From the NCBI GenBank assembly GCA_024280455.1, contig JAJRQC010000127.1, forward strand, positions 1 to 35,808: DNA of 35,808 nt. The letters are read 5' to 3'. Positions 15,500 through 31,841 of this stretch are shown one piece after another. This DNA comes from Deltaproteobacteria bacterium. Its GTDB lineage: Bacteria; Desulfobacterota; Desulfobulbia; Desulfobulbales; Desulfobulbaceae. The first letter of the stretch is position 1; the number at the start of each line of letters is the position of its first letter. The position numbers and the translations under genes are program-made. The notes beneath the pieces were generated by a model. That model did no database searches and was not told where the DNA came from. It worked only from the letters and a program-made list of their open reading frames with translations.

Positions 15500-16639
15500 A
15501 TGCAAGCCTTCATCCGCTTCACCCTAAAGCAACGGGTTCTGCTCAACCTGCTCTTTGTCCTCATCATGCTCGTCGGGGCCTGGGCTATGCTCCGCTCTCC
15601 GGTTGAACGCTACCCGAACATTCACTTCGGCAAAGTTCTGATCGACACCTATTATCCGGGAGCCTCTCCCCAGGATGTTGAGGCATTGGTGACCCGTGAG
15701 ATTGAAGACGCGCTGGAAGATCTGGACAACGTTGAATACATCCTTTCCAACTCCTATAGCCAGCGTTCATCCATCCTGGTCAAATTCGTCGATGATACCG
15801 ACTATCAGGCCGGGTATGACGAACTCCGCTTCCGGGTCCAGGGTATGCTCCAGGATCTGCCGCCCACGGTTGATCCGCCGAAATTCAATGAACTTGACGT
15901 TAACGACTGGTTTCCCGCAATTTCGGTCAATATTCTGGGCGACAGGTCAAACCGGGCCCTGGCACTTATCGCCGAAGACCTGAAGACCAGGCTCAGCCGG
16001 ATTGAAGGCCTCAAGGAGGTCAAACTTGTCGGTGAATATGTACGGGAATTTCACGTCCTGCTTGATCCGGTCAAAATGCGTACCCTGGGCATTACCTTTG
16101 AACAGGCCGCCCGGGCACTGAACCAGGGGAACATCATTGTTCCGGCCGGTGAATTTACCACCGGCGGCGGCGAGTTCATGCTGCGGGTGGATGAACGGTA
16201 TCGCAGCCGACAGCAGGTCATGGATACCATCATCCGCATTGACGGCGACGGCACATTTGTCCGCATCAGCGACATTGCCCTGGGCGCCTCTCTCGATTAC
16301 CGGGATCCCTTTGTCATGTCTTCGGTCAACGGCAGGGACTGTGTGACCCTGCAGTTGATCAAGACCCGGGAGGGCAATGCCATTCGCATTGCCGCTGCTG
16401 CCAGGGCCGCTGTTGCCGAAAATCAGGCCCGCTATCAAAACGAAGGGATACAGCTGGTTCTGACCCAGGATTCCACGGTCAAGATCAAGGATTCCATGCG
16501 GGTCCTCGGCTTTAACCTGTTGCTTGGCATTATCCTGGTCAGCCTCCTCATCTACGCGGTGATGGGGTTTCGCAATGCCGCTCTGACTACAATCGGCATC
16601 CCCTTGCCTTTCTGGTCACCATGGGCATCATGTACCTGA
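15500..16639 (+). CDS. RND transporter, N-terminal fragment before frameshift 1
   Basis: Frame carrying the first transmembrane helix (LLNLLFVLIMLVGAWAML), the porter subdomains PN1 and PN2 and the start of the helix bundle (LGFNLLLGIILVSLLIYAVM). The last dozen residues (PFWSPWASCT) are out of frame and should be ignored if the frameshift is real; homology ends at GIPL near 16606. Without the rest of the protein this fragment could not form a pump. Confidence 0.7.
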   Translation: MQAFIRFTLKQRVLLNLLFVLIMLVGAWAMLRSPVERYPNIHFGKVLIDTYYPGASPQDVEALVTREIEDALEDLDNVEYILSNSYSQRSSILVKFVDDTDYQAGYDELRFRVQGMLQDLPPTVDPPKFNELDVNDWFPAISVNILGDRSNRALALIAEDLKTRLSRIEGLKEVKLVGEYVREFHVLLDPVKMRTLGITFEQAARALNQGNIIVPAGEFTTGGGEFMLRVDERYRSRQQVMDTIIRIDGDGTFVRISDIALGASLDYRDPFVMSSVNGRDCVTLQLIKTREGNAIRIAAAARAAVAENQARYQNEGIQLVLTQDSTVKIKDSMRVLGFNLLLGIILVSLLIYAVMGFRNAALTTIGIPLPFWSPWASCT

Positions 16640-17643
16640 CCGGCAACTCCATCAACGAACTCTCCCTGTTTTCTTTTGTCCTGGTCTCAGGCATCATTGT
16701 TGATGATGCGATTATCGTAGTAGAAAATATCTACCGCCATATCCAGGCCGGAAAGAATATTAACGACGCGGTGGTCGACGGCGCCGCCGAAGTCTTCCTG
16801 CCGGTTATCTCCGCCACCCTGACCACCATTACCGCCTTTCTGCCCATGCTGATCATGACGGGCTCCATCGGTGAGTTTTTTGCCATTATCCCCAAGGCGG
16901 TTACCTATGCTCTGGCCGCATCTTTGATCGAATGTCTGTTTATTCTTCCCATTCACTACCTGGACTACGGCCCCAGAAAAAACCAGACTATCAGGCGGGG
17001 CCGCAAATACACCATACGCTGCGACACCCTTGAATTCAAAGTGGAAGACACCCCGTTCATGGCCGCCTGCAGAGTTTTTTTCAACCGTCTGCTGCAACTG
17101 GTTCTTCGTTATCGGTTCACCAGTCTGGCTGTGCCGGCCTTCTTCTTCTGCCTGGCCGCATTTATTGCCCTGGCCTCCCTGTCCGGCAAGATGAACCTGA
17201 TCCGGGTCACCTTTTTTCCCGATGATTATTCGACCTACTACGTGGAAATCAGTGGGCCGGTCGGCACCCCGATCGAAACCACCCATGCCCTGATTAAAGA
17301 CATTGCAGCCGAGGTCATGGCCGACGGCCCGGGCATGACGACATCAGCTCAGGGCATGGCCGGATTTTATCTCAACGAGGATTACATGGCGGTCTGGGGT
17401 AATCATCTCGGCCATGTAGTCGTTACCCTGCCCGCTCTCCGGGACCGTTCTTTTGAAGATGCACCGAAAAACGATATCCTCGCCCATCTCGATACCATGC
17501 GGAAAAAGCTGGCCCATTTTACAGAATCCGGCTTCAGCCTGCGGATCCGACCGGAAAAGACGGGCCGCCCTCGGGCAAAGATGTCAATATCCGGGTGCTG
17601 GGCAAACAGCTTGACTCGGTTCAACGACTCAGTAAGAAACTGA
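16621..17643 (+). CDS. RND transporter, middle fragment between the two frameshifts
   Basis: Carries the paired acidic residues of the proton-relay helix (GIIVDDAIIVVENIYRH, equivalent to AcrB Asp407/Asp408), further helices of the first bundle, then the start of the second periplasmic loop (SGKMNLIRVTFFPDDYSTYY, EISGPVGTPIE). Its ATG is an internal methionine, not a natural start; homologous sequence already runs in this frame from about 16606. The final 25 or so residues after RIRPEKTG are shifted out of frame. Confidence 0.7.
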   Translation: MGIMYLTGNSINELSLFSFVLVSGIIVDDAIIVVENIYRHIQAGKNINDAVVDGAAEVFLPVISATLTTITAFLPMLIMTGSIGEFFAIIPKAVTYALAASLIECLFILPIHYLDYGPRKNQTIRRGRKYTIRCDTLEFKVEDTPFMAACRVFFNRLLQLVLRYRFTSLAVPAFFFCLAAFIALASLSGKMNLIRVTFFPDDYSTYYVEISGPVGTPIETTHALIKDIAAEVMADGPGMTTSAQGMAGFYLNEDYMAVWGNHLGHVVVTLPALRDRSFEDAPKNDILAHLDTMRKKLAHFTESGFSLRIRPEKTGRPRAKMSISGCWANSLTRFNDSVRN

Positions 17644-18728
17644 TGGGCTTTCTCAGGCAGAACCCGGAGATAGCCCCTGCCCTGATTGATCTTGAAGATA
17701 ATCAGGGCCAACCGGGCCGGGTGGTTCGCTTTCAAATCAACAGTGAACGGGCCGGCGAATACGGGTTGTCCACCGATCAGGTCGCTCTGCTTGCCGCCGG
17801 GGTCCTCAACGGCCGGGTGGCGGGAAAATACCGGATGCTTGACGAGGAGCTTGACCTCAAGGTTAAGATAGATTCAACTTCAGGCAAGGGTTTACAGCAG
17901 CTCATGCAGACCCCGATCATCGAGCATGCCGACGGCCCGGTCCTGCTCGGCGACCTCTGCACACCGGTTTTCAGCTCCGAGCCAGGATCTCTCAACCGGT
18001 TTCAGGGCATGCGGGCGATCACCCTGACCGCCAATATCCGTGAAGGCAGTTCCGTTTCCTCGCAGCTGGTGGTTGACCGGGTGCAAACTTTTTTTTCAAC
18101 AATCCGCAGTAAATTCCCGGGGGTCGCGCTCAATTTTGCCGGAGAATACGAATCAACCCAGCGCTCCTACACCTCGCTGACCTATGCTTTCCTGGTCGCC
18201 CTGCTGCTTATCTACCTGATCCTTGCCACCCAGTTCAGCTCGTATGTGCAGCCGCTGATCATAATTTCGGCAGTTGCCTTTGCCCTGATCGGGGTTATCT
18301 TCGGCACATTTCTCTCACGAAGCCTCTTTACTATTAACTCGTTCATGGCTATTGTCGGGGTAACCGGAGTGGTGGTCAACGACTCGCTGGTGCTGATTGA
18401 GTTTATCAACAAATCCTTTCAGCAGGGACTCTCACGGCGGGAAGCCATTGTCCGGGGAACAAATATCAGGCTGCGACCGATCATCCTGACCACCCTGACC
18501 ACGACCCTGGGCCTGTTGCCGATGGCCATCGGCATCCCTGAATATTCACTGGTCTGGGGCACAATGGCCATGACCTTTGTGACCGGTCTCTGTACGGCGA
18601 CCTTTTTAACCATTGTTCTTATCCCGGTGGAATGGGATCTTCTCATGGCCGCAAAAGAACGAAAAGAAAAAAATGCGGATCCGGCCGGTTCCCGCCCGAC
18701 ACGAATCGTGATTACACGAGAATCCTGA
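17595..18728 (+). CDS. RND transporter, C-terminal fragment after frameshift 2
   Basis: Carries the rest of the second porter loop (GEYESTQRSYTSLTYAF) and the C-terminal membrane helices (LLLIYLILATQFSSYVQPL, FMAIVGVTGVVVNDSLVLIEF, RLRPIILTTLTTTLGLLPMA), which match RND family signatures. The ATG is internal; in-frame homology begins at about 17565 with a GKDVNIRV segment. It ends with a charged cytoplasmic tail, 28 bases before the TraB-family gene. Confidence 0.7.
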   Translation: MLGKQLDSVQRLSKKLMGFLRQNPEIAPALIDLEDNQGQPGRVVRFQINSERAGEYGLSTDQVALLAAGVLNGRVAGKYRMLDEELDLKVKIDSTSGKGLQQLMQTPIIEHADGPVLLGDLCTPVFSSEPGSLNRFQGMRAITLTANIREGSSVSSQLVVDRVQTFFSTIRSKFPGVALNFAGEYESTQRSYTSLTYAFLVALLLIYLILATQFSSYVQPLIIISAVAFALIGVIFGTFLSRSLFTINSFMAIVGVTGVVVNDSLVLIEFINKSFQQGLSRREAIVRGTNIRLRPIILTTLTTTLGLLPMAIGIPEYSLVWGTMAMTFVTGLCTATFLTIVLIPVEWDLLMAAKERKEKNADPAGSRPTRIVITRES

Positions 18729-21963: not shown

Positions 21964-23550
21964 ATGAAATCAGGAAATCTTTTACTCAGCGGAGTGCTCG
22001 TGTTCAGTCTCCACGCCATGTCCGGCACAGGAATTGCCAAGATGGGCGGTGGAGGTATGATGGGCAACGTTTCCCACCAGACCCATTGGAACGCTGAATG
22101 GGGCCCAAAACTCGGCAACAAGTGCTCTACCTGCCATAACGGCAGGCCCTCCAGACGCACCGTCAGCTATAAAAACTGTATACCATGTCACAGTCCTGAT
22201 GGGGCGTATGACGGCGTAAACGACCCTGTCATCGGTGCCAGATACAACTGGGGCAGGATGTCCTCCGCTATTTACGACAGCAATGACCAGCTCAGGCCGG
22301 GAAAAGAAAAATGGTGTGCAGGTTGCCACGATGACGGCACAGCCGTAATTGATGATGTCCGGGCGCCGAATGTGACCGGTAAATCCATGAGCGGCGACTG
22401 GCAAAGTCCTGCTTCGATTCTTGATTCCGATTTTCCGGACGCGGAAAACCTGTTGAACAACGACCTCTCTCTCGGACTCGTTGATTACCATGGTACCTAT
22501 GTACTGTTTGATTTTGGCAGCCCGCAAGATATTTCGCACATCAGACTGTATACCGGAGCTGAATCCGATAGCTACTGGGAGGTCTACGGCGGAAATGATC
22601 CGGACAACCTGGACAGAATTCTATTGGGCCAGGCAATTCTGTTTGCCCGTCCCTCCTGGGAGGTTGGCCCGGAAGAGGGCTGGAACGATATCAGGTTGGA
22701 TAGTTTTATTCAGATGCGCTATCTCAAACTTATCAAAATCAGTCCCTGGTCATTTACAGTTAACGGTGTCCGTGAATTTGAGTTCAAGAAAGATCTTGAG
22801 TACGGCTACTATGCAAATGGACATAAACTGAGCTGCGATAACTGCCACGACGTAAAGAGCAGTCATATAGACGGACTGTCAAGAACCTACCAGGCCGATC
22901 AGGACAACTACAACTCCGGCTACCGGCTGACAAATGTCCAGGTGGACTGGGAGGTTGTCCCTGCAATGCAGATCCCGCGCACCGGCTGCAGTAAAGACGA
23001 GGGCCAGAACAGCAATGATTTTGCCCTCTGTTTCAAATGCCATGATAAAACTATGGTTTTAGGGGATGCCTACAGCCAGGGAGAGTTTTACCAGGACCCT
23101 CTGCAGACAAATTTTCGCAACGATACCCATGTCGATGAAAACGGCATGGTGAGCAACGAGCACCTTCGCCATATCCTCGGCCGTGGCTACTGCGGTAACA
23201 CCGAGGACTGGGATTCGGACTGGGACGGCACCCCAGATTCACCTATAAGCTGTACCGCCTGCCACAACGTTCACGGCTCGCCGACACCGGCCATGACCAG
23301 GCATGGAGAACTCACCAGCCCGGCCGGAACCAACGAGAATGTCCCCATGATTAATTTTCAATACCTTGATGCAAACGGTATAGCTGACAGGGACCTGTCC
23401 AATGTCATGAAAAGTACCGGTGGCCAGACCCAGTTTTATGGACCGGGGCCGGGAAAACCGGATAAAAACTCCACCTGCAAAATGTGTCATAACGATCAAA
23501 TTTCCTATCAACGTGAACCAGCAGCCGTTGACCACGGTTTACTGCCATAA
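21964..23550 (+). CDS. exported heptahaem c-type cytochrome with an inserted discoidin-like domain (paralogue 1)
   Basis: 528 residues with a signal peptide (MKSGNLLLSGVLVFSLHAMS). Seven CXXCH haem sites start at Cys54, 72, 118, 291, 356, 430 and 505. The 170-residue gap between haems 3 and 4 holds a beta-rich segment (about 145-276) resembling a discoidin/F5-8 type C galactose-binding fold: VLFDFGSPQDISHIRLYTGA, YWEVYGGNDPDN, MRYLKLIKIS, VREFEFKK. Near haem 6 an aspartate-rich DWDSDWDGTPDSP resembles calcium-binding thrombospondin type 3/EF-like loops. It probably moves electrons in the periplasm or at the surface, with the inserted domain binding a ligand, surface or partner (inference). 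It is expressed from a sigma-54 promoter. A paralogue at 30249-31841 shares order and spacing. Confidence 0.88.
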   Translation: MKSGNLLLSGVLVFSLHAMSGTGIAKMGGGGMMGNVSHQTHWNAEWGPKLGNKCSTCHNGRPSRRTVSYKNCIPCHSPDGAYDGVNDPVIGARYNWGRMSSAIYDSNDQLRPGKEKWCAGCHDDGTAVIDDVRAPNVTGKSMSGDWQSPASILDSDFPDAENLLNNDLSLGLVDYHGTYVLFDFGSPQDISHIRLYTGAESDSYWEVYGGNDPDNLDRILLGQAILFARPSWEVGPEEGWNDIRLDSFIQMRYLKLIKISPWSFTVNGVREFEFKKDLEYGYYANGHKLSCDNCHDVKSSHIDGLSRTYQADQDNYNSGYRLTNVQVDWEVVPAMQIPRTGCSKDEGQNSNDFALCFKCHDKTMVLGDAYSQGEFYQDPLQTNFRNDTHVDENGMVSNEHLRHILGRGYCGNTEDWDSDWDGTPDSPISCTACHNVHGSPTPAMTRHGELTSPAGTNENVPMINFQYLDANGIADRDLSNVMKSTGGQTQFYGPGPGKPDKNSTCKMCHNDQISYQREPAAVDHGLLP

Positions 23551-23610
23551 GAAAAGATTCGGTTGCAGACGATCCCGGTCAACCGACACTTGCAATATTC
23601 CAGTTCTCTC

Positions 23611-23646
23611 CACGGACATTGCCCGTTGCATTGGGCAATGTCCGTG
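23611..23646. other. perfect 14-bp hairpin
   Basis: CACGGACATTGCCC (23611-23624) and GGGCAATGTCCGTG (23633-23646) are exact complements around an 8-base loop. No T run follows on either strand, so this is not a standard intrinsic terminator. It could be a binding site, a recombination site or the end of a small mobile element. It lies 61 bases after the first heptahaem gene. Confidence 0.5.
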
Positions 23647-23649
23647 CGA

Positions 23650-23830
23650 GCAGGAACTCATGCCGACCACCCATTCGGGTATTTGGGAAAATTTAGTTCG
23701 TTCCAGTTCAATTCGGATTCTCCCGACGACCACTCAAATCAGCCTCGCTACACAAAACCCCATTCCGGGCAACCCCTGCCCCACCTGCCATAAAATCACC
23801 ACAACAACTCAGCTTATCCTTTCACCTGGG
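23650..23830 (+). pseudogene. possible frameshifted remnant of a multihaem cytochrome
   Basis: One frame reads GTHADHPFGYLGKF from about 23653, a His-Pro pattern often seen beside haem sites. Another frame reads NPCPTCHK, with a CXXCH motif at 23777-23791. The frames differ, so a shift would be needed between them, and no start or stop brackets them. The location directly after an intact multihaem cytochrome supports decay of a related gene, but the evidence is short and could be chance. Confidence 0.3.
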
Positions 23831-23838
23831 ACACTTTT

Positions 23839-24114
23839 ATGCCTGCCCCTTCTCCCACATTTTCCCAAAGAGGCCTGGTCAAGCGTGAGCGGGATGAAAA
23901 GGACAGGAGATACTTCAACGTGATCCTGACTAAAAAGGGGAAAAAGTTAATCCGGAAAATTTTTCCCGGTCATGCAAATGGAATCGTTTCCGCCATGGAG
24001 AACCTGACCAAAAGTGAACAAAAACAACTCGGAATACTCTGCAAAAAAACTGGCTGGAAAAGTATAAAGAGGCACAGGATTCGCTTAACCCAACTTTGTA
24101 AGTACGTTTTATGA
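23839..24114 (+). pseudogene. MarR-family regulator, C-terminal fragment
   Basis: Residues from about 23869 onward read RGLVKRERDEKDRRYFNVIL, then TKKGKKLIRKIFPGH and LTKSEQKQLGILCKK. This is the winged-helix wing (with the conserved DxRxxxVxLTxxG pattern) and dimerisation helix of the MarR family. The N-terminal dimer helices and the recognition helix are missing; upstream sequence in this frame (MPAPSPTF) is unrelated. The fragment cannot bind DNA as a normal MarR protein. MarR genes often sit beside pirin genes, and a pirin remnant follows, so the two probably decayed together. Confidence 0.65.
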
Positions 24115-24130
24115 ATTATTATAATTTCAG

Positions 24131-24231
24131 CATGTTACCGTGACGACAAATGGCTGTTTGGCACTACATCTTTTATTTTGTTGTTTTTTGTCAAGATGTT
24201 ACGGGCAGAAAAATTTCGTTTGGCACTACAC
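24131..24231 (+). repeat. short imperfect tandem repeat ending GTTTGGCACTACA
   Basis: The segment around 24131-24168 (ATGTTACCG...GTTTGGCACTACA) recurs at about 24196-24231 (ATGTTACGG...GTTTGGCACTACA). Outside it, TTAACCCAAC at about 24087 and GTTGGGTTAA at about 24333 form a perfect 10-base inverted pair. The stretch between the MarR fragment and the pirin remnant is very AT-rich and shows no gene. Confidence 0.35.
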
Positions 24232-24392
24232 AGAGCTCATTTTTTATAACATATTGTAATTAAAAAAATTTATTTTTTTATGCTTTACGAGAAACCTTCA
24301 TTACAGAGTTGTTTGGGAATCAATCGCAAAAGGTTGGGTTAAACAGTTCAACATTGGATCCACCAGATGTCTTTTTAAATAGAGGCGTGAAC

Positions 24393-24779
24393 ATGATAGA
24401 AATTATTCCTCCGGAACAAAGACATTTTACCGATTTTGGCTGGTTAAAAACGTACTGGTTGTTTTCCTTTGAAGACGACTAAGACCTGAAAAATATCCAG
24501 CACGGCAGACTCAGGGTATTCAATGACGACGTTGTTGAGCCCTGGCAGGGGTTTTCGATGCACCCTCATGAAGAAATGGAAATTATCTCCTTAATCCTGA
24601 GTGGAGAAATGGTTCACAAAGACACAATTGGTAATGAGATCATCGTCAGGGCTACTGAGGTATAGAGAATGTCTGCAGGAACAGGGCTCTATCACTCTGA
24701 ATGGAATCATACAAACGAACCGGTTCACACAGAAGTAAAGATCAAGGGCGGAGGAACACCCGCCCCATTACAAGAGTAG
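24393..24779 (+). pseudogene. pirin-family cupin, N-terminal half with two in-frame stop codons
   Basis: One frame, read through two stops, gives clear pirin signatures: RHFTDFGWLKTYWLFSFED, then LRVFNDDVVEPWQGFSMHPH with metal-binding histidines in HPHEEMEIISLILSG, MVHKDTIGN, and RMSAGTGLYHSEWNHTNEPVH. TAA at 24480-24482 replaces a codon just after FSFEDD, and TAG at 24663-24665 falls where pirins usually have Gln before RMSAG (CAG to TAG). The second cupin half is missing: the frame ends at 24779 after unrelated residues. Pirins are iron-containing cupins, some with quercetinase activity. This copy is non-functional. Confidence 0.8.
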
Positions 24780-24896
24780 TATTCAATACCATTTTTTACT
24801 TTACAGCTGCAAACAGATAAGATAATATCCAGATTAAGAATTATTCTTTCATACTATTTAATCAATCTGAGCAAAGTAATTAAGGAGACCCGGCGT

Positions 24897-26009
24897 ATGA
24901 AGCTCAAGTATTACAGTATCTCGCTCCTGGCTGTCACCGCCCTTGCCACCTGGGCTGCGGCAAAAGACGCACCCCTGCCCCTGGGACTGCCCCCGGTCCC
25001 GGTCCCGATCGACAACCTCCAGGATCCGGTAAAAATCAAACTTGGCGACAAACTCTTTAATGACAAACGGTTCAGTGCCACCGGCGAGGTCAGCTGTGCC
25101 ACCTGTCACGCCCCGGAAAAGGCCTTCACCGACAGCCCGCTGTCGGTTTCCGAGGGCATTGAGAAAAAAACCGGAACACGTAATGCGCCTACGGTTATCA
25201 ATGCGGCATTCCTCCATTCCCAGTTCTGGGATGGCCGGGAACCGACTCTGGAATCACAGTCCGGCCAGCCCTTTCTCAATCCGGTTGAACACGGGCTCAA
25301 GGATTACAGCCCGATTCTAAAGATTGTCAGAACCGATCCGGAATATCAGGCCCTGTTCAAGGAAGTTTTCAACAAAGAAGGTAAGGACATTACGATTGAC
25401 GAAGTAGAAAAGGCCATTGCCAGCTTTGAGCGCACCGTCATCTCAGGAGATTCCCCATTTGATCGCTACCACTACGGCAGGGACAAAGGCGCGATGACCG
25501 AGGCGGCCGTCCGTGGATTCAAGGTTTTTGTCGGCCAGGGACGCTGTGTTTCCTGCCATACCATGACCGATACCCATGCCCTGTTTACCGACAACCGGTT
25601 CCATAATCTCGGGGTCAGCTTCAGCGTAATTGATAAGGATCTCAAAGAAATGGCCACCGCATTTACAAAGGCAAAGAGCGAGGGAACAAATGTTGATATT
25701 GCCATCCTGACCAACCAGAACGTTTCGGAACTGGGACGTTTTGCCGTTACCGGCCAGTGGCGGGATATCGGCTCTTTCAAGACCCCGGGCCTGCGTAACG
25801 TTGAGATGACCAGCCCCTACATGCATGACGGCAGCCTGATGACCCTTGATGACGTGGTGGAATTCTATAATCTTGGGGGAATCCTGGAAGAAGGAGATCC
25901 CGTCAACAGTTTCCAGAGTGGCGGCATTCGTCCCCTGAACCTGAGCGATGAGCAGAAAAGTGACCTGGTCCAGTTCCTTGGAGCCCTGACCAGCCCTGAA
26001 TATAAATAA
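24897..26009 (+). CDS. dihaem cytochrome c peroxidase / MauG-family protein
   Basis: 370 residues, with AAGGAG 9 bases before the ATG and a signal peptide (MKLKYYSISLLAVTALATWA). Two CXXCH sites, CATCH at 67-71 and CVSCH at 217-221, lie in the two cytochrome domains of the bacterial CCP/MauG family. Family blocks are present: FNDKRFSATGEVSCATCH, GTRNAPTVINAAF, FWDGREPTLESQ, FKTPGLRNVEMTSPYMHDGS and FYNLGG. Members reduce hydrogen peroxide or carry out MauG-like oxidations in the periplasm; which one applies is not decidable here. It is the first gene of a three-gene operon (14 bases to the next start) with a metallophosphoesterase and a small cytochrome. Confidence 0.9.
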   Translation: MKLKYYSISLLAVTALATWAAAKDAPLPLGLPPVPVPIDNLQDPVKIKLGDKLFNDKRFSATGEVSCATCHAPEKAFTDSPLSVSEGIEKKTGTRNAPTVINAAFLHSQFWDGREPTLESQSGQPFLNPVEHGLKDYSPILKIVRTDPEYQALFKEVFNKEGKDITIDEVEKAIASFERTVISGDSPFDRYHYGRDKGAMTEAAVRGFKVFVGQGRCVSCHTMTDTHALFTDNRFHNLGVSFSVIDKDLKEMATAFTKAKSEGTNVDIAILTNQNVSELGRFAVTGQWRDIGSFKTPGLRNVEMTSPYMHDGSLMTLDDVVEFYNLGGILEEGDPVNSFQSGGIRPLNLSDEQKSDLVQFLGALTSPEYK

Positions 26010-26023
26010 AAAAGGAGTAAGCA

Positions 26024-27088
26024 ATGAAGATCCTTAACCGACGTGATCTCCTCAAAGGTGCAGGAGCACTGGTTGCCGGAGCAACCCTGCCGATCAGTCT
26101 GGTAGAAATGGCCTTTGCAGATTCGAGCCTGAATTTTACCTTTGCCTACATTTCGGATTCCCACATCCAGCAGATCAAGGGCAGCAAATTTGTCCGCAAC
26201 TGGGACCGCGGCCTGATCCGCGCCGTGGCCGAAGCCAACCTGATGAACCCAAGGCCCGACTTTATTTTTTATGGCGGTGATATTGCCCAGCTTGGCAAGA
26301 AATCCGAGATTGACCACGGGCTCGATATTCTTTCCGGGCTCCGTGACAAGGTACACTATGTAATGGGCGAACATGACTATTATCTTGACCTCGGTGAACA
26401 CTGGAAGAAACGGCTCGGCCCTGATCATTACAGTTTTGACCACAAGGGCATGCACTTTGTCGTCCTCAATTCGATCCTCACTTACGACGACTGGACCTAT
26501 GACCGCTGGAAGGATGGTGAAGAGCGGATGGGCGTGATGGCCGGTCTTGACGACCACCGCGGCTCGCCGTTTATGGTCGGTGAAAAACAAAGGGCCTGGC
26601 TTAAAAAAGATCTGGCAAAGGTCGATGTCAACACGCCGGTCACCGTGCTTTCCCATTCGCCCCTGCAGAAGATCTACCGGGGCTGGAACTTCTGGACCGA
26701 AGATGCAGAACAGATTCAGGCGCTGCTGAAGCCCTTTAAAAAGGTCAACGTCTTTTACGGACACGTGCACCAAATCCAGTACAACCAGATCGGCAACATC
26801 AGCTTTCATGCCGCCATGGCCACGGCCTGGCCCTGGCCTTATCCGCAGTCAAATGCCAAGGCCGAAAGTTCACTGCCCAAGCTGACGGTGCAGATGAACC
26901 GGGCCGACCCATTCTTTGAACGCGATGCAACCGGCTGGCAATACATCGATATTCACAGCGGCAACGCGACAATGAATTTCAGTCTGCCGGACAACTCGCC
27001 CCGGACAGTGGCCTTTAATCCTGCCACCGGGCGGCCCGAGGATGTGAAATATCAGCACAACCGCATTCCACCCCAGACCCATTTTTAA
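26024..27088 (+). CDS. Tat-exported metallophosphoesterase with a GEHD site
   Basis: 354 residues; AAGGAG lies 8 bases upstream of the start. The N-terminus has a twin-arginine signal (LNRRDLLKGAGALVAGATLP), so the protein is folded before export. Calcineurin-like phosphoesterase motifs are all present: SDSHI (Asp45, His47), YGGDI (Asp86), GEHD (116-118, where the family usually has GNHD), LSHSP (His211) and GHVH (His247, His249). The Asn-to-Glu change at the metal-bridging position is a notable deviation. It should bind two metal ions and act on a phosphoester outside the cytoplasm; the substrate is unknown. Its position between two c-type cytochrome genes suggests a shared periplasmic process (inference). 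Confidence 0.85.
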   Translation: MKILNRRDLLKGAGALVAGATLPISLVEMAFADSSLNFTFAYISDSHIQQIKGSKFVRNWDRGLIRAVAEANLMNPRPDFIFYGGDIAQLGKKSEIDHGLDILSGLRDKVHYVMGEHDYYLDLGEHWKKRLGPDHYSFDHKGMHFVVLNSILTYDDWTYDRWKDGEERMGVMAGLDDHRGSPFMVGEKQRAWLKKDLAKVDVNTPVTVLSHSPLQKIYRGWNFWTEDAEQIQALLKPFKKVNVFYGHVHQIQYNQIGNISFHAAMATAWPWPYPQSNAKAESSLPKLTVQMNRADPFFERDATGWQYIDIHSGNATMNFSLPDNSPRTVAFNPATGRPEDVKYQHNRIPPQTHF

Positions 27089-27114
27089 AAAAGCGGCGAC
27101 AATAAAAAAATACA

Positions 27115-27150
27115 AACCGGATCCGCCCATGTATGGGCCGGGAACCGGTT
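27115..27150 (+). other. intercistronic hairpin before the small cytochrome gene
   Basis: AACCGG (27115-27120) pairs with CCGGTT (27145-27150), and GCCCAT (27125-27130) with ATGGGC (27133-27138), giving a near-continuous stem. No T run follows. It may stabilise or process the mRNA between the metallophosphoesterase and cytochrome genes; a partial terminator is less likely. Confidence 0.5.
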
Positions 27151-27171
27151 TAAAAGACAAGGAGGTTAGTA

Positions 27172-27585
27172 ATGACGAGCAAAACAGTGACCATGGTTGT
27201 GCTGATAACGGCAGTGCTCTTGATGACCGGCATCCAGGCGGTTCAGGCGGACGAATACACCTCAGCCGATCTGGAACTCTGGCAGAACGAATATGACGCG
27301 GCCGTGAAGAGAGGACGCCAGGTGTTCACCGACCAGAAGCTGGGCACCAACGGTGTGGTTTGCGCCCAGTGCCACCCCAACGCGGCCAACACCCACCCGG
27401 AGACCTACCCGAAATACCAAAAACAACTCGGTAAGGTAGCCACCATGGCCGAAATGATCAACTTCTGCATTATGAACCCGCTGGAAGGTTCGGCTCTGGC
27501 TCTTGACGACCAGCGAATGGTCGACATGCAGGCCTACATCACCAATGAACGAAAAGGTGAATCTCTGGCCCCGGGCAAACACTGA
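27172..27585 (+). CDS. small periplasmic monohaem cytochrome c
   Basis: 137 residues with a very strong ribosome site (AAGGAGG, 7 bases) and a signal peptide (VLITAVLLMTGIQAVQA). The haem site CAQCH is at 64-68. The C-terminal part, MINFCIMNPLEGSAL followed by MVDMQAYITN, matches class I cytochromes of the SoxX/SoxA-like type, with candidate axial Met residues near 115-120 and a free Cys in NFCIM. It probably exchanges electrons with the dihaem peroxidase of the same operon. A hairpin lies in the 83-base gap upstream, so its translation or mRNA stability may be tuned separately. Confidence 0.85.
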   Translation: MTSKTVTMVVLITAVLLMTGIQAVQADEYTSADLELWQNEYDAAVKRGRQVFTDQKLGTNGVVCAQCHPNAANTHPETYPKYQKQLGKVATMAEMINFCIMNPLEGSALALDDQRMVDMQAYITNERKGESLAPGKH

Positions 27586-27606
27586 ACATGGGATTTATAA
27601 TCGCTG

Positions 27607-27733
27607 CCGCTCCATCGGGAGCGGAACAATAGATAAAAGGCTGATCAGCTGAAGGAAGATGAAACTCCCCTGCCCCGGACGGAACGCCACTGGCCATGGG
27701 CAGGATCATCGCCGGCAAAACGCCTTTTGCCGG
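27607..27733. terminator. two hairpins in the convergent gap (weak terminator candidates)
   Basis: CCGCTCC-ATCG-GGAGCGG at 27607-27624 and CCGGCAAAA-CGCC-TTTTGCCGG at 27712-27733 are perfect stems lying between the convergent cytochrome and efflux permease genes. Neither has a proper downstream T run, although the second carries T residues in its arm on both strands. Confidence 0.35.
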
Positions 27734-27738
27734 GGCAT

Positions 27739-28989
27739 TCATAGCGGTTTACTTGCTTTCAAATCAGCTAAAGGCTGGAGCGGCACAACCTGCTCCGGAG
27801 TTGTGCATCCCCCCCCGCAACCGCAGGCGGCATCATGGAGATGTTGACGAAGATGTTCATGTCCGTGGCCATGATCATGGCCCGTGCTGCAGGAATCGGA
27901 AGCGCAGCCGCAGCCATCGCCCTTTCCGAACCAGCCATTCACGATAGTGTACAACGGCCTTACTGAGAGAACAAGCAGCAGCAGAGTTGCCGCAGTCATC
28001 AGCCAGTCGGGCAGTACTTCAGCCGCCTGCCCGACCACGGCTACGGCGGAAATCCCCAAGCCGAGATAGATTGCATCCACAGCCAACCCGCAAAGTACAC
28101 TGACAACGGCAATCGAAGTCAGGTATAAAACCGTGGCCCGTTTTCCGAGCAGTCCGACCAGAACCGACAGGGAGGTCACGTTGGTGGCCGGCCCGACCAG
28201 GAGAAAGACCAGGGCCGTGCCCGGGCTGACTCCTTTCATAATAAAGGCGGCCGCAATCGGCGTTGATGCGGTTGCACAGATATACAGGGGAATACCAAAG
28301 GCGAGCATGAGCAACATTGAAGAGAGGCCGCCGCCCAGGTACCGGGAAATCACATCATCAGGGACCAGCACGGTAATAATCCCGGCCAGCAGGATGCCGA
28401 TGAAAAACCAGCCGGCAAGATCAGCCCAGAGGTCGGTTGCGGCATATTTGATTCCAACCTTGAATTTACTTTGAAAACTATGATGGTTCCGGTGTTCCTC
28501 GGGCGGACAGTCAACCCCGTCACAGCAGTTATCAATCGGACAGCTCAGATCGGGTGTCACCCTATTTTTCGTATCCGGTGGGTTAAAAATATTTTCTGCT
28601 ATGCCGGCGGCAAAGGCGGAAATAAAGGCGGAAATCGGCCGGGCAACGGTCATGATCGGATCAAGCAGAGCCCAGGTAATAGAGATGGAATCCACCCCTG
28701 ATTCCGGGGTTGAGATCAAAAAGGCCGTGGTGGCACCGTTATTAGCTCCCTGTTTTTTCAGAGAAGCAGCCGCCGGCAGCACACCGCAGGAACAGAGCGG
28801 AATCGGAATCCCGAGCAGAGCGGCCTTGAAGACCGAACTGAAACGGCCGCTCCCAAGTTGACGTGCCACATAAGACGGAGATAAAAAGACCTTCAGCAAC
28901 CCTCCGACCAGCAGACCGAATAGAATATAAACAGAAGCCTGCTGGAGAAGATCCCAGGAGGCCAGCAGAATGTTGTATAAAAAAGTCAT
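27739..28989 (-). CDS. SO_0444-type metal (Cu/Zn) efflux permease
   Basis: About 416 residues. The start at 28989 is chosen because GAGG lies 5 bases before it; the previous ATG is adjacent and a start at 29031 has no support. Two permease halves of the DUF318/ArsP-like fold are visible, with the signature GIPIPLCSCGVLPAAASLKKQG split over residues about 75-96 and the second-half GIPLYICATASTPIAAAF plus FLLVGPATNVTS. The central loop has CPIDNCCDGVDCPPEEHRNHH and the C-terminus has HDHGHGHEHLRQHLHDA and CGCGGGC, both likely soft-metal binding. Homologues export copper or zinc; the substrate is inferred. It is co-directional with an ArsR regulator 107 bases upstream. Confidence 0.85.
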   Translation of the reverse strand: MTFLYNILLASWDLLQQASVYILFGLLVGGLLKVFLSPSYVARQLGSGRFSSVFKAALLGIPIPLCSCGVLPAAASLKKQGANNGATTAFLISTPESGVDSISITWALLDPIMTVARPISAFISAFAAGIAENIFNPPDTKNRVTPDLSCPIDNCCDGVDCPPEEHRNHHSFQSKFKVGIKYAATDLWADLAGWFFIGILLAGIITVLVPDDVISRYLGGGLSSMLLMLAFGIPLYICATASTPIAAAFIMKGVSPGTALVFLLVGPATNVTSLSVLVGLLGKRATVLYLTSIAVVSVLCGLAVDAIYLGLGISAVAVVGQAAEVLPDWLMTAATLLLLVLSVRPLYTIVNGWFGKGDGCGCASDSCSTGHDHGHGHEHLRQHLHDAACGCGGGCTTPEQVVPLQPLADLKASKPL

Positions 28990-29096
28990 CATGACCTCAA
29001 AAAAACACTCCCCCCACGTCCAGGCCAACACATTGTAACCGACAGGAGCAGCAATAGTTTATGTTTAGTTAGTGAAGCTGGAAGCTCCAAATGAGT

Positions 29097-29474
29097 CTAC
29101 TCTTCCCGCAGATGTTCCAGAGCCAGACGAATTAAGGCCCGAACATGATCATCATCCAGGCGATAATACAGCACAGGCCCCTCACGACGGTTAGCAACCA
29201 GATGCAACCCCCTGAGCTGACGCAGCTGATGACTGACTGCAGATTCGGTTACCCCGATAAACTGCGCCAGATCGCAGACACACATCTCTTCCCGGTCCAG
29301 GGCCCACAAAATTCGCAACCGGTTGGGATCTCCCATTGCCTTGAACAGGGTGGCAAGCTTCTCATTCTCCCTAGAGGCAAGAGCATACTCATGAGCCGCA
29401 TCAACACGATCCTGATGGATACAGCGGCACCGGCACTGCTCCCCCTGCACAATAACTGTCCTTCCTTTTTCCAT
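29097..29474 (-). CDS. ArsR/SmtB-family metal-sensing repressor
   Basis: 125 residues from the ATG at 29474. This start is preferred over a GTG at 29543 because the operator and -10 box fall between the two. The winged helix is clear: LFKAMGDPNRLRILWALD, MCVCDLAQFIGVTESAVSHQ (recognition helix) and REGPVLYYRLDD. Possible metal ligands are the N-terminal CRCRCIH (Cys14, 16, 18), the alpha-3 CVCD (Cys65, 67) and a C-terminal DDDHVRALIRLALEHLREE like the alpha-5 zinc site. This combination is like CadC-type sensors of Cd, Pb or Zn. It should repress itself and the downstream efflux permease. Confidence 0.9.
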   Translation of the reverse strand: MEKGRTVIVQGEQCRCRCIHQDRVDAAHEYALASRENEKLATLFKAMGDPNRLRILWALDREEMCVCDLAQFIGVTESAVSHQLRQLRGLHLVANRREGPVLYYRLDDDHVRALIRLALEHLREE

Positions 29475-29481
29475 ATCCTCG

Positions 29482-29503
29482 CATATGATCAATTGTTCAT
29501 ATG
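29482..29503 (-). promoter_or_regulatory. ArsR/SmtB operator (imperfect palindrome)
   Basis: On the minus strand, CATATGAACA-AT-TGATCATATG is a 10-2-10 inverted repeat with one mismatched pair, close to the ATATGAACA-type sites bound by SmtB/CadC-family repressors. It overlaps the -10 box of the promoter, a position suited to repression. Confidence 0.7.
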
Positions 29504-29530
29504 AATAAACAAGAATCAACTTCTTGTCAA
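29502..29530 (-). promoter_or_regulatory. sigma-70 promoter of the arsR-permease unit
   Basis: Minus strand: perfect -35 TTGACA (29530-29525), a 17-base spacer and a weak -10 TATTCA (29507-29502) that overlaps the repressor palindrome. Transcription would start near 29495, upstream of the ATG at 29474. Confidence 0.55.
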
Positions 29531-29543
29531 CCCTTCTCTTCAC

Positions 29544-30092
29544 TACTCATCTCTCAAGAGGAGACGGTTTCATCATAAATTTCCATTTAAAAAAAAACGA
29601 TAATTAAAATTATCCATCCATGGGCTTTAAAATAATAATCGAGCAGACCCGTGCCAGGCAGCCTTCGCAAAACAATACAAAACGTAAAAAACCACGGAAC
29701 AACGAAACCAATCTCAAGATATTTTCACTTTCTTCTTAACAAATCCTCTCAACTCAAGCCTCGAGAAGAACAGCGTTACGACTAACATTTTATGATCACT
29801 ACAAATAAAAAAAACATTGCGCTGCAACATTTTCCGTCAATCGTGTCGTTTTTTCGCTACAAATACCACAGTGTGCTCTTGTTTTTTTTATCATACTTTG
29901 TCATATTGTCCCATAAAAAGTATCCATTCGAGAATTCTCAACTCAGAATCCAGCTTCCTGCAGGGGTTATGTATAGTTGAGAAAACACTGAGCAATATCT
30001 TTAGTGTCACAACAATAGAGACGGCTTCCCGGATTTTTCAGGAGAAACAACGACGATTAAACGTATTTTCTTATAGGAGGAAAACAGGAAAT
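29544..30092. other. AT-rich intergenic region upstream of the second heptahaem gene
   Basis: No ORF here has a ribosome site and family signature. A possible plus-strand promoter is TTGAGA (29977-29982), 17 bases, TTTAGT (30000-30005). I found no -24/-12 sigma-54 site like the one upstream of the first paralogue. No c-di-GMP (GEMM) riboswitch core was found. Confidence 0.4.
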
Positions 30093-30173
30093 ATGCGTTT
30101 ACAGCTGGAGTCGGTTACGACACGAAACCAAGGCGACTCCTCTTTTTTACCCTGCAGAATGGTTGCCGGTTAA
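30093..30173 (+). CDS. possible leader peptide (26 residues)
   Basis: Short ORF MRLQLESVTTRNQGDSSFLP..., preceded by TAGGAGG 13 bases upstream and AGGA closer in. It overlaps a terminator-like hairpin (30107-30148) and ends 75 bases before the second heptahaem cytochrome. This arrangement would allow translation-coupled attenuation, but the peptide has no regulatory run of one amino acid. No family match is recognised. Confidence 0.3.
   Translation: MRLQLESVTTRNQGDSSFLPCRMVAG
30107..30148 (+). terminator. leader terminator / attenuator-like hairpin
   Basis: GGAGTCG (30107-30113) pairs with CGACTCC (30134-30140) and is followed by TCTTTTTT. The form is that of a Rho-independent terminator with a 20-base loop. 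It lies 100 bases upstream of the cytochrome start and inside a small ORF. A second stem, CATCTTTTTC/GAAAAAGATG (30189-30226), follows before the ribosome site. Confidence 0.55.
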
Positions 30174-30248
30174 GAAAGAGGAACTTACCATCTTTTTCAC
30201 AACAAAAAAAGCAAGCGAAAAAGATGAGATCAAAAAAAAGGAGAGGAA

Positions 30249-31841
30249 ATGACGATTAAAAACATTCTGATTGGAACCGCCGTTGCGATCGGGGTCTGCG
30301 GGTTTGCTCAATTCAGCCTTGCAGAAAGCGCTTTCCATGAAACCCATGTCCATGGGGCAAAAGGAGATCTCGGCCTGAGCTGCTGGGACTGTCATCCGTC
30401 AGGCGGGGGGCCGGGATTCCAAACCCCTCCCCCGGAAGCATGCATTCCCTGTCACAGCCCTGATGGGGCTTATGACGGCCTGATGGATGAGAATATCGGC
30501 GCCTACCAACGATCAAACTGGTCAACAGCCGATGGCGACGTATCAAAAATCTATGATGCCGACGGTAACCTGCGACCGGGAAAAGAAGACTGGTGCCTCG
30601 GCTGTCACGATGACGGCCATTCCGTGGTTCAGGGTGTTGCAGCATCAAATATTGCCGGCATGACCCTGAACGGAACATGGCAGTCGCCCCAGGGCGTTGT
30701 CGACACCGGCCTGACAGGGGTGGAAAACCTGATCGACGGTGATATCACCACCGGTAATGATGCCGGCACCCTGAAAGAGTTAATCTTCGATCTGGGCAGT
30801 GAAACAACCATCACCCATATCAGATTGTACAACTCAGGATCCAGGAAATACCGCATGGAAGTCTGGGCCGGCAACGACCTCAACGAGTGGACCAGGGTTC
30901 AGTGGGGCCGCAAAATCATGGCTGCCAAACCCTTCTGGGACATACTTCCGGCCCAGCAATGGTTTGAAACCAGACTGGATAAATTCGGCTCTTTTCGCTA
31001 CATCAAACTGATTAAAGAGGTGGAGAAAGAAGTTATCGCCGGTGCCCTGCGCGAATTTGAGTACAAGGCGGATATCTCCTACGGATACAACGTCAACGGT
31101 CACAAGATCACCTGCGACAACTGTCATGACACAAGCAGCATGCACATTGACGGTATTGCCAGAACCTATAAGGCGGATCTGAACAACTATGCCGAGGGCT
31201 ATCGTTTTGCCGACATGATTCTTGACTCCGGCGAGGTAGTTCCGGCCCTTGAAATCCCCAGGGTCGGCGTCAACTGGCAGGAAACTCCGCGGACCGACAA
31301 CGATTTTGCCCTCTGTTTCAGCTGCCACAACAAGTATGATCTCCTTGGTGACGCCGACGGCGAAGGTCCTTTCCAGAAAAATCCTCTGCAGACCAACTTC
31401 AGAGACGATGAAAACGTTGATGAAAACGGTAATCCGACCAATGCCCACCAGCGCCACCTGCGCGGCCGTGGCCCTTACGGCAACTCCGCAGACTGGGATT
31501 CGGACTGGAACGGTATCCCGGATTCACCGCAAAGCTGTCCCGCCTGCCATAATGTACACGGGTCACCGAACCCGGTCATGACCAGGCATGGAGAGCTGGT
31601 CTCCACCCCGGGAACCCTGGACCGGGTTCCCATGTTCAACTTCCAGTACAAAAATATGGATGGCGACATTGACCCGGACCTGATGGACACCATGTCCAGC
31701 AGTGGCGGAGAATCTCAATTCTTCCGGGCCGGACCAGCCAAGATCGAAAGAAACAATACCTGCAGAATGTGTCACAACGACAAGAAATCATACAACCGTA
31801 CCGCCACATCCATCCCGCTGCCCGGACAGGGGCCGCAATAA
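30249..31841 (+). CDS. exported heptahaem c-type cytochrome with an inserted discoidin-like domain (paralogue 2)
   Basis: 530 residues, ribosome site GGAGAGG, signal peptide MTIKNILIGTAVAIGVCGFA. CXXCH sites start at Cys45, 65, 116, 289, 356, 430 and 505; the last three are at exactly the same positions as in paralogue 1. Shared blocks include CIPCHSPDGAYDG, NDFALCF-x-CH, DPLQTNFR/NPLQTNFR, DWDSDWxGxPDSP, CxACHNVHGSP and MTRHGEL. A discoidin-like segment (about 143-273: LIFDLGSETTITHIRLYNSG, MEVWAGNDLNEW, FRYIKLIKEVEKE, LREFEYK) lies between haems 3 and 4. It is probably a periplasmic or surface electron carrier. It has its own leader with a terminator-like hairpin upstream and a strong terminator downstream, so it is a single-gene unit. 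Confidence 0.88.
   Translation: MTIKNILIGTAVAIGVCGFAQFSLAESAFHETHVHGAKGDLGLSCWDCHPSGGGPGFQTPPPEACIPCHSPDGAYDGLMDENIGAYQRSNWSTADGDVSKIYDADGNLRPGKEDWCLGCHDDGHSVVQGVAASNIAGMTLNGTWQSPQGVVDTGLTGVENLIDGDITTGNDAGTLKELIFDLGSETTITHIRLYNSGSRKYRMEVWAGNDLNEWTRVQWGRKIMAAKPFWDILPAQQWFETRLDKFGSFRYIKLIKEVEKEVIAGALREFEYKADISYGYNVNGHKITCDNCHDTSSMHIDGIARTYKADLNNYAEGYRFADMILDSGEVVPALEIPRVGVNWQETPRTDNDFALCFSCHNKYDLLGDADGEGPFQKNPLQTNFRDDENVDENGNPTNAHQRHLRGRGPYGNSADWDSDWNGIPDSPQSCPACHNVHGSPNPVMTRHGELVSTPGTLDRVPMFNFQYKNMDGDIDPDLMDTMSSSGGESQFFRAGPAKIERNNTCRMCHNDKKSYNRTATSIPLPGQGPQ

Follow-up and report, generated by a model that had tools for sequence, protein, structure and literature searches.

Paralogous heptahaem cytochromes from a Desulfobulbaceae genome with a discoidin-like domain in an exchangeable slot between haems 3 and 4

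Two paralogous cytochromes on one contig

The window analysed here is a whole stretch of 35,808 nucleotides (contig JAJRQC010000127.1, positions 1 to 35,808 of the forward strand) from the Desulfobulbaceae assembly GCA_024280455.1, labelled Deltaproteobacteria bacterium. It encodes two paralogous heptahaem c-type cytochromes, P1 (528 aa) and P2 (530 aa), which share 49% identity and are each interrupted between haems 3 and 4 by an insert of about 135 residues. A first-pass annotation of the letters alone had described them as paralogues with seven CXXCH motifs each, the last three at identical residue numbers, and this is borne out: the motifs start at residues 54, 72, 118, 291, 356, 430 and 505 in P1 and at 45, 65, 116, 289, 356, 430 and 505 in P2. 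Searching the host genome (4.15 Mb, 173 contigs) with P1 at E <= 0.001 returns the P1 and P2 loci only. Multihaem c-type models of Pfam match both proteins, and both N termini, judged by eye, read as ordinary signal peptides with neither a lipobox nor a membrane helix apparent. The parts of the two genes are as follows.

21964..23550, + strand: P1, heptahaem c-type cytochrome with discoidin-like insert, 528 aa (open reading frame, Pfam, alignment)
21964..22038, + strand: P1 signal peptide, residues 1-25, with Lys, a hydrophobic core and GIA (translation judged by eye)
22069..22383, + strand: P1 N unit, haems 1-3 (profile match)
22384..22797, + strand: P1 discoidin/CBM32-like insert, the slot (profile 1.3e-63, P1 itself being part of the profile, and alignment)
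22798..23523, + strand: P1 C unit, haems 4-7 (profile match and alignment)
30249..31841, + strand: P2, paralogous heptahaem cytochrome with the same type of insert as P1, 530 aa (open reading frame, Pfam, alignment)
30249..30323, + strand: P2 signal peptide, residues 1-25, with SLA (translation judged by eye)
30330..30662, + strand: P2 N unit, haems 1-3, including His30 and His33 (profile match, His counts)
30663..31076, + strand: P2 discoidin/CBM32-like insert, residues 139-276 (Pfam, alignment, predicted fold, profile against PDB)
31077..31808, + strand: P2 C unit, haems 4-7, including His285, 299, 400, 403, 437 and 447 (alignment, His counts)

Two smaller features stand out along the chains. 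A Gly/Met-rich stretch (22039-22068 in P1) separates the signal peptide from the first haem unit in P1 and in its close homologues at loci L030, L031 and L032; P2 is without it. Directly before haem 6 (about residues 416-426 of P2) there is a DxDxDG..DS stretch, widely kept in relatives, which we take to resemble calcium-binding loops.

One insertion point with exchangeable contents

Separate profiles for N (three haems), for the insert and for C (four haems) were searched across the collected loci. This gave 60 two-part units: 59 with both N and C above thresholds and one, at L081, added by hand; partial or weaker units, such as L062, L080, L082 and two open reading frames (ORFs) of L074, stayed uncounted. 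Among the 60, L065 and L083 are near-identical, and L046 and one L047 copy are truncated. The alignment used for the fold, the His counts and the tree (A4) holds 44 of the 59 units, omitting 14 discoidin-free units and one discoidin unit that is truncated.

The slot between the N and C parts is occupied by a discoidin-like domain in 26 of the 60 units, by a Golvesin_C domain in 6 and by a short linker (<=36 residues between N and C profile ends) in 28; as the query that gathered the units itself bore a discoidin, these counts should not be read as population frequencies. The Golvesin_C units (the second units of L057 and L058, and L064, L066, L077 and L081) have 134-176 residues in the slot, and Pfam places PF25275 there in all six. 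In a search of PDB sequences, the copy from L066 hits a Paenibacillus xanthan lyase over its residues 917-1034 (5.4e-19). A CBM6-CBM35-CBM36-like domain (CBM, carbohydrate-binding module) is described in both xanthan lyase and golvesin, which are not themselves lectins; two Bacteroides proteins with such a domain are reported as lectins (PMC9166713, available in part).

That the haem-free stretch is an extra domain rather than loose sequence, in line with the first reading of a β-rich domain replacing a gap, is visible in the motif spacing: from haem 3 to haem 4 this is 173 residues in P1 and P2, against 37-70 in the resolved empty-slot homologues of A4. The junctions are clean (...APNxxG / insert / YGYYxxGHK...), and the empty second unit of L053 reads straight across the slot with a spacing of 37. 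An archaeal chain, at L057, has N-discoidin-C followed by N-Golvesin-C in successive units. Since discoidin, Golvesin_C or a short linker can stand at one and the same point, the haem unit tolerates two unrelated CBM-type domains or none. By sequence comparison, the heptahaem unit (3 + 4) is a reusable module with one insertion point, and it turns up again in proteins whose open frames span 936-3,221 aa. Four large relatives that were scanned (L033, L034, L035, L038) have β-helix, NosD, GEVED or kelch-type regions.

Large cytochromes are found at L033-L038, L070 and L079, with open frames of 1,102-3,044 aa and 12-23 CXXCH toward the N end. Another arrangement is seen at L072:1-5247 (- strand), in a bin labelled Gammaproteobacteria, where a 1749-residue frame ending at the locus edge has 43 CXXCH; in it the three-haem N unit is repeated seven times, about every 220 residues, as a long tandem haem repeat.

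The insert is predicted to be a discoidin-type jelly roll

The annotation had proposed a galactose-binding, discoidin-like fold for the insert, and sequence profile, predicted structure and fold comparison agree with this. Pfam matches in P2 are below cut-off (F5_F8_type_C at 1.8e-4, 22.1 bits, residues 157-254; F5_F8_type_C_2 at 5.3e-5, residues 160-218), and P1 alone gives no F5/F8 match at E <= 1; the slot domain of the archaeal homologue at L056 matches F5_F8_type_C at 4.2e-12, with 46.7 bits against a cut-off of 28.2. A profile built from 29 copies of the insert, 26 from the slot and 3 from elsewhere, finds in PDB the CBM32 of the alginate lyase AlyQ at 7.8e-7, and further CBM32 domains too.

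The structure of P2 was predicted by AlphaFold with A4; the model has a mean predicted local distance difference test (pLDDT) of 75.6 and a predicted template modelling score of 0.72, a model from a 12-row alignment being weaker (mean pLDDT 41.7). Ten-residue blocks over the insert average pLDDT 84-96, with one block at 63, and the C haem unit is less confident, its lowest block being at 39. The insert is modelled as a jelly roll. The top Foldseek match of the model in PDB is the CBM32 of AlyQ (E 1.8e-7), and VIA-align superimposes the two with Z 15.6 and 2.1 Å over 120 residues (residues 115-248 of the trimmed chain); the fold-search lists for the model are taken up by matches to the insert. 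As far as prediction allows, the assignment of the insert to the F5/8 type C jelly rolls (discoidin, CBM32-like) is settled.

Across the 29 copies Trp6, Leu23, Gly45, Trp92, Trp100, Tyr113 and Glu131 (insert numbering) are invariant, and Asp25 and Thr30 are almost so. In domains of this class a structural calcium site is formed by the D-G-D..T loop together with the C-terminal Glu.

Haem ligands

Eight His outside CXXCH are conserved among the 44 units of A4. In P2 numbering, His285, 299, 400, 403 and 437 are kept in all 44, His33 and His447 in 42 and His30 in 40. Bis-His ligation of seven haems needs seven His, which leaves one of the eight spare. The conserved His thus suffice as second axial ligands and no haem need stay open for catalysis; we infer from the alignment that all seven haems of P1 and P2 would be bis-His ligated. 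Within the insert, His190 of P2 is kept in all 24 discoidin rows of A4 and in 26 of 26 slot copies, and its position in the three discoidin copies outside the slot holds Ser, Ser and Met.

Distribution and phylogeny

Surveying genomes for the same architecture, as the annotation had advised, shows that the family extends beyond P1 and P2 into both bacteria and archaea. The insert is present (E <= 1e-15) in 11 of 257 genomes of the host's order, and the C unit (E <= 1e-30) in 5 of 395 sampled genomes of its phylum, both counts including the host and two of the latter matches being weak (1e-31, 1e-40). P2 is matched at E <= 0.001 in 15 of the 57 genomes compared, in some solely via the haem units, and two of seven other genomes of the host's genus match it. 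Scanning the species genomes of GTDB yielded 47 loci; their assemblies bear the labels Desulfobulbaceae, Desulfobulbus, Deltaproteobacteria and others, and archaeal records are among them.

The archaeal records are L056 (labelled Syntrophoarchaeum), L057 (Methanoperedenaceae GB37, GoM-Arc1_E37, on a 1.9 Mb contig), L060 (DQIO01), L061 and L081 (Methanophagales, with a Golvesin_C slot). DQIO01 is listed as sp. HMMV2 of ANME-3, a group of anaerobic methanotrophic archaea (ANME), and the GoM Arc I group is described as ethane degraders (PMC9012536, available in part). Units with a discoidin are found in Desulfobulbales as well as in archaea that bear mcrA, namely ANME-3, an ethane-oxidiser-type genome and the Syntrophoarchaeum-labelled genome. 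In one search the alpha subunit of methyl-coenzyme M reductase (MCR) was found in five of five archaeal genomes and in none of three bacterial ones, methanogen controls being positive; in genome G258 one of four MCR alpha copies lies on the cytochrome's own contig, and the L056 contig carries an MCR alpha match. Within the class of the L057 genome the C unit (E <= 1e-15) is found in 9 of 199 sampled genomes, strongly in G257, G260 and G261 (E < 1e-100) and weakly in the other six (1e-16 to 1e-19). The archaeal open frames span 684-1777 aa and have 11-17 CXXCH.

In a tree of the haem parts alone (43 rows, 380 columns, midpoint root) all 24 rows with a discoidin group together as a single clade (99/99). 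P1 belongs to a 6-row clade and P2 to a 9-row clade (100/99 each), and with the midpoint root the two archaeal pairs lie outside a bacterial clade of 20 rows (97/95). The simplest reading is a single gain of the discoidin domain and an old duplication into P1 and P2; genome G011 (L039 and L051) also has both types. Separately, the cytochrome units at L056 9995-11449 and L057 9995-11452 are nearly identical under labels of different archaeal groups, which would mean either a recent transfer or a binning error.

Genomic setting

In the host, a sulphur-metabolising bacterium, dsrA and a GspD secretin score above cut-off. Its contig C61 has a cluster of a 26-haem protein with a lipoprotein-like start, a 16-haem protein, 5-, 8- and 10-haem proteins, a peptidyl-prolyl isomerase and a haem-free ORF of 710 aa, a composition that would resemble an outer-membrane electron conduit.

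Between P1 and P2 lie genes for a di-haem peroxidase, a metallophosphoesterase, a SoxA/TsdA-type cytochrome, ArsP and ArsR. When ORFs around 25 loci were clustered, no cluster except the cytochrome itself was common to more than 6 loci, and the genes between P1 and P2 did not recur. Four members scanned from the 6-locus cluster are histidine kinases of differing make-up, so we draw no function from neighbours. Further haem proteins occur beside some relatives: 8-, 12- and 12-haem ORFs near L044, and, in two genomes, a second, different heptahaem ORF that immediately follows the P2-type gene on its downstream side (L027:5854-7131, the same as L043, and L041:11544-12905).

Elsewhere in the window, three overlapping ORFs in different frames (15500-18728) match successive parts of one resistance-nodulation-division efflux permease, covering positions 5-366, 374-481 and 669-1007 of NF033617; this is either a single permease gene disrupted by two shifts of frame or a product of sequencing or assembly errors. 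A pirin-like fragment with two in-frame stops (24393-24779) adjoins a fragment with a weak winged-helix match (23839-24114), and the stretch between P1 and the peroxidase gene looks like decayed genes.

Possible function of the inserted cytochromes

We propose that P1 and P2 are electron-transfer cytochromes that are exported and, most likely, extracellular. Their seven c-type haems would form a chain (3 + 4), each with a conserved His for the second axial ligand, and a CBM32-like jelly roll interrupts the loop that joins haem 3 to haem 4. Domains of this kind often bind sugars. The termini of a discoidin-type fold lie near each other, so the insert could stand off the haem chain, and it may anchor this chain to a polysaccharide or glycosylated surface, which could be the matrix of the cell itself, some polymer or a partner cell. 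The haem unit would then be the reusable part and the domain the plug-in, with relatives that carry Golvesin_C or nothing in the slot and archaea that use the units in larger cytochromes. On balance we think it probable that P1 and P2 are secreted bis-His electron-transfer cytochromes held on a polysaccharide or cell surface by a swappable CBM-like domain. This would entail export past the outer membrane, a surface location, glycan binding and electron exchange with a partner or matrix, and may extend to a role in interspecies electron transfer. The dsrA gene, the GspD secretin and the C61 multihaem cluster of the host are in keeping with it. Docking on a surface, polymer or partner had already been suggested in the first-pass annotation; it has become likelier with a second CBM-type domain in the slot and with the fusions to β-helix, NosD, GEVED and kelch-type regions, and we infer it on these grounds.

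Several observations weigh against this proposal. The discoidin-type fold also serves protein binding. In the 29-copy alignment the loops where a sugar site would lie are among the variable parts, so that a galactose-site signature cannot be claimed for the insert. Its mean pairwise identity is 0.465 compared with 0.610 for the C unit, and is the lower of the two in 273 of 276 pairs; the N unit, at 0.495, is about equally variable. The lower conservation would fit varied specificity but also weak constraint. As to a route to the surface, the 710-aa ORF of the C61 cluster has no Pfam or NCBIfam match, so to call it a porin is a guess, and a search of the host for MtrB/PioB gave no match, its control being equally silent. 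Nor did the clustering of ORFs around 25 loci reveal a conserved neighbourhood that would place the gene with an operon for export or for a conduit.

Part of this evidence bears on the chief rival explanation, in which the insert binds no glycan and is a protein-protein or assembly domain, making contacts between filament subunits or docking on an S-layer, a pilus or a conduit protein. APC10/Doc1 is among the Foldseek matches, and IFT25 and SUN domains are among the VIA rows. Because His190 is kept in the slot copies and replaced by Ser, Ser and Met outside, part of the insert seems adapted to its position within the haem protein; the spare eighth His could reach a neighbouring subunit, and the variability of the sugar-site loops fits such contacts too. 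Against this, two domain families, both with carbohydrate-active nearest solved relatives, occupy one slot, and 28 of the 60 units are without either. We regard an assembly domain as possible, though on the unlikely side.

It is improbable, in our view, that P1 and P2 are a periplasmic electron carrier or multihaem enzyme with a purely structural jelly roll. Only a standard signal peptide is visible by eye, which would suit this, as would the di-haem peroxidase and SoxA/TsdA-type cytochrome genes between P1 and P2. However, the conserved His are enough for all seven haems, the neighbouring genes are not kept in relatives, and homologous units occur in very large β-helix/GEVED proteins and in archaea; archaea of the groups carrying them are not known to have an outer membrane. 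The last alternative, that the haem-free gap arose by chance or as an artefact of an assembly in 173 contigs, has a negligible probability and was rejected, since the same insertion with the same boundaries is conserved in 26 units from many assemblies, one of them the 1.9 Mb archaeal contig, and the discoidin rows form one clade (99/99).

The anchored-cytochrome proposal touches the question of how cells engaged in direct electron exchange locate and retain the appropriate partner or matrix. ANME-3 is described as forming consortia with the Desulfobulbus group (PMC9012536). The exchange at the slot points to a plug-in that may direct an electron wire towards a surface or partner, and the presence of the family in ANME-3 and ethane-oxidiser-type archaea and in genomes labelled Desulfobulbaceae or Desulfobulbus gives named proteins with which partner or matrix recognition can be probed. 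In a broader form, the heptahaem unit would offer a standard socket for varied glycan-recognition domains, common to anaerobic methane- and alkane-oxidising archaea and Desulfobulbales, as a lectin-guided wire that aims direct interspecies electron transfer at particular partners or matrices. We put this forward tentatively and consider it rather doubtful. The slot variants are also a natural domain-swap series for the design of surface-targeted conductive proteins.

Comparison with known systems

The first reading had not recognised a characterised family, and this stands within the scope searched: no Pfam or NCBIfam model spanning the whole of P1 or P2 was reported, and the haem parts matched nothing among PDB sequences better than E 0.08. 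None of the PDB matches (9 rows to E 10; 4 rows to E 1) is named as a filament cytochrome of the OmcS, OmcE or OmcZ kind. We found no published account of a multihaem cytochrome with a discoidin or F5/8 type C domain in a literature coverage that was partial, so that a description elsewhere is possible; under 'multiheme cytochrome' and 'galactose-binding', PMC5244752 (available in part) offers a domain count table and text on adhesion.

The outer-membrane cytochromes MtrC, MtrF and OmcA, in which β domains alternate with haem domains, are likewise multihaem. PF22113 (MtrC/MtrF domain II/IV) matches P2 just above cut-off (35.6 bits against 30) and P1 below it (27.1 bits); multihaem models cross-match easily, as is seen from their matches to other haem proteins. 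Unlike them, P1 and P2 have seven haems (3 + 4) and a CBM32-like jelly roll, and TIGR03507 (OmcA/MtrC family) stays far under its cut-off (18.1 against 209.3 bits in P1; no row at E <= 0.01 in P2).

The multihaem cytochromes of ANME types A, B and C are large archaeal surface proteins fused to other domains, defined by some 20 or more haems and an S-layer or pectin-lyase-type domain; for the pectin-lyase-like domain of type C the authors suggest a possible part in recognising partner cells (Chadwick 2022, PMC9012536). P1 and P2, with seven CXXCH and no S-layer or pectin-lyase-type domain at E <= 1, are of another kind: the discoidin lies within the heptahaem unit, and in Desulfobulbales this is a small single-unit protein. 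OmcS-like, OmcX and Apc2a proteins of syntrophic sulphate reducers are exported multihaem proteins proposed to take up archaeal electrons (Murali 2023, PMC10553843, available in part); P1 and P2 resemble them as exported multihaem proteins, with no PDB match named as a filament cytochrome. The word 'discoidin' is absent from the available parts of both texts.

For the insert itself, the closest known systems are the CBM32 modules of F5_F8_type_C (PF00754), with the AlyQ CBM32 (7d29, 7d2a) as the nearest solved one and the CpGH89 CBM32 (4a42) as another, which have the fold and the sequence profile in common with it, down to the D-G-D..T and C-terminal Glu positions of the structural calcium site. 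The sugar-site loops of known CBM32 modules have no recognisable counterpart in the insert, and its invariant Trp92 and Trp100 fall in a stretch partly gapped in the alignment to the AlyQ CBM32. Unlike the CBM32 modules carried on a glycosidase or lyase, the predicted jelly roll of P1 and P2 lies within a haem chain.

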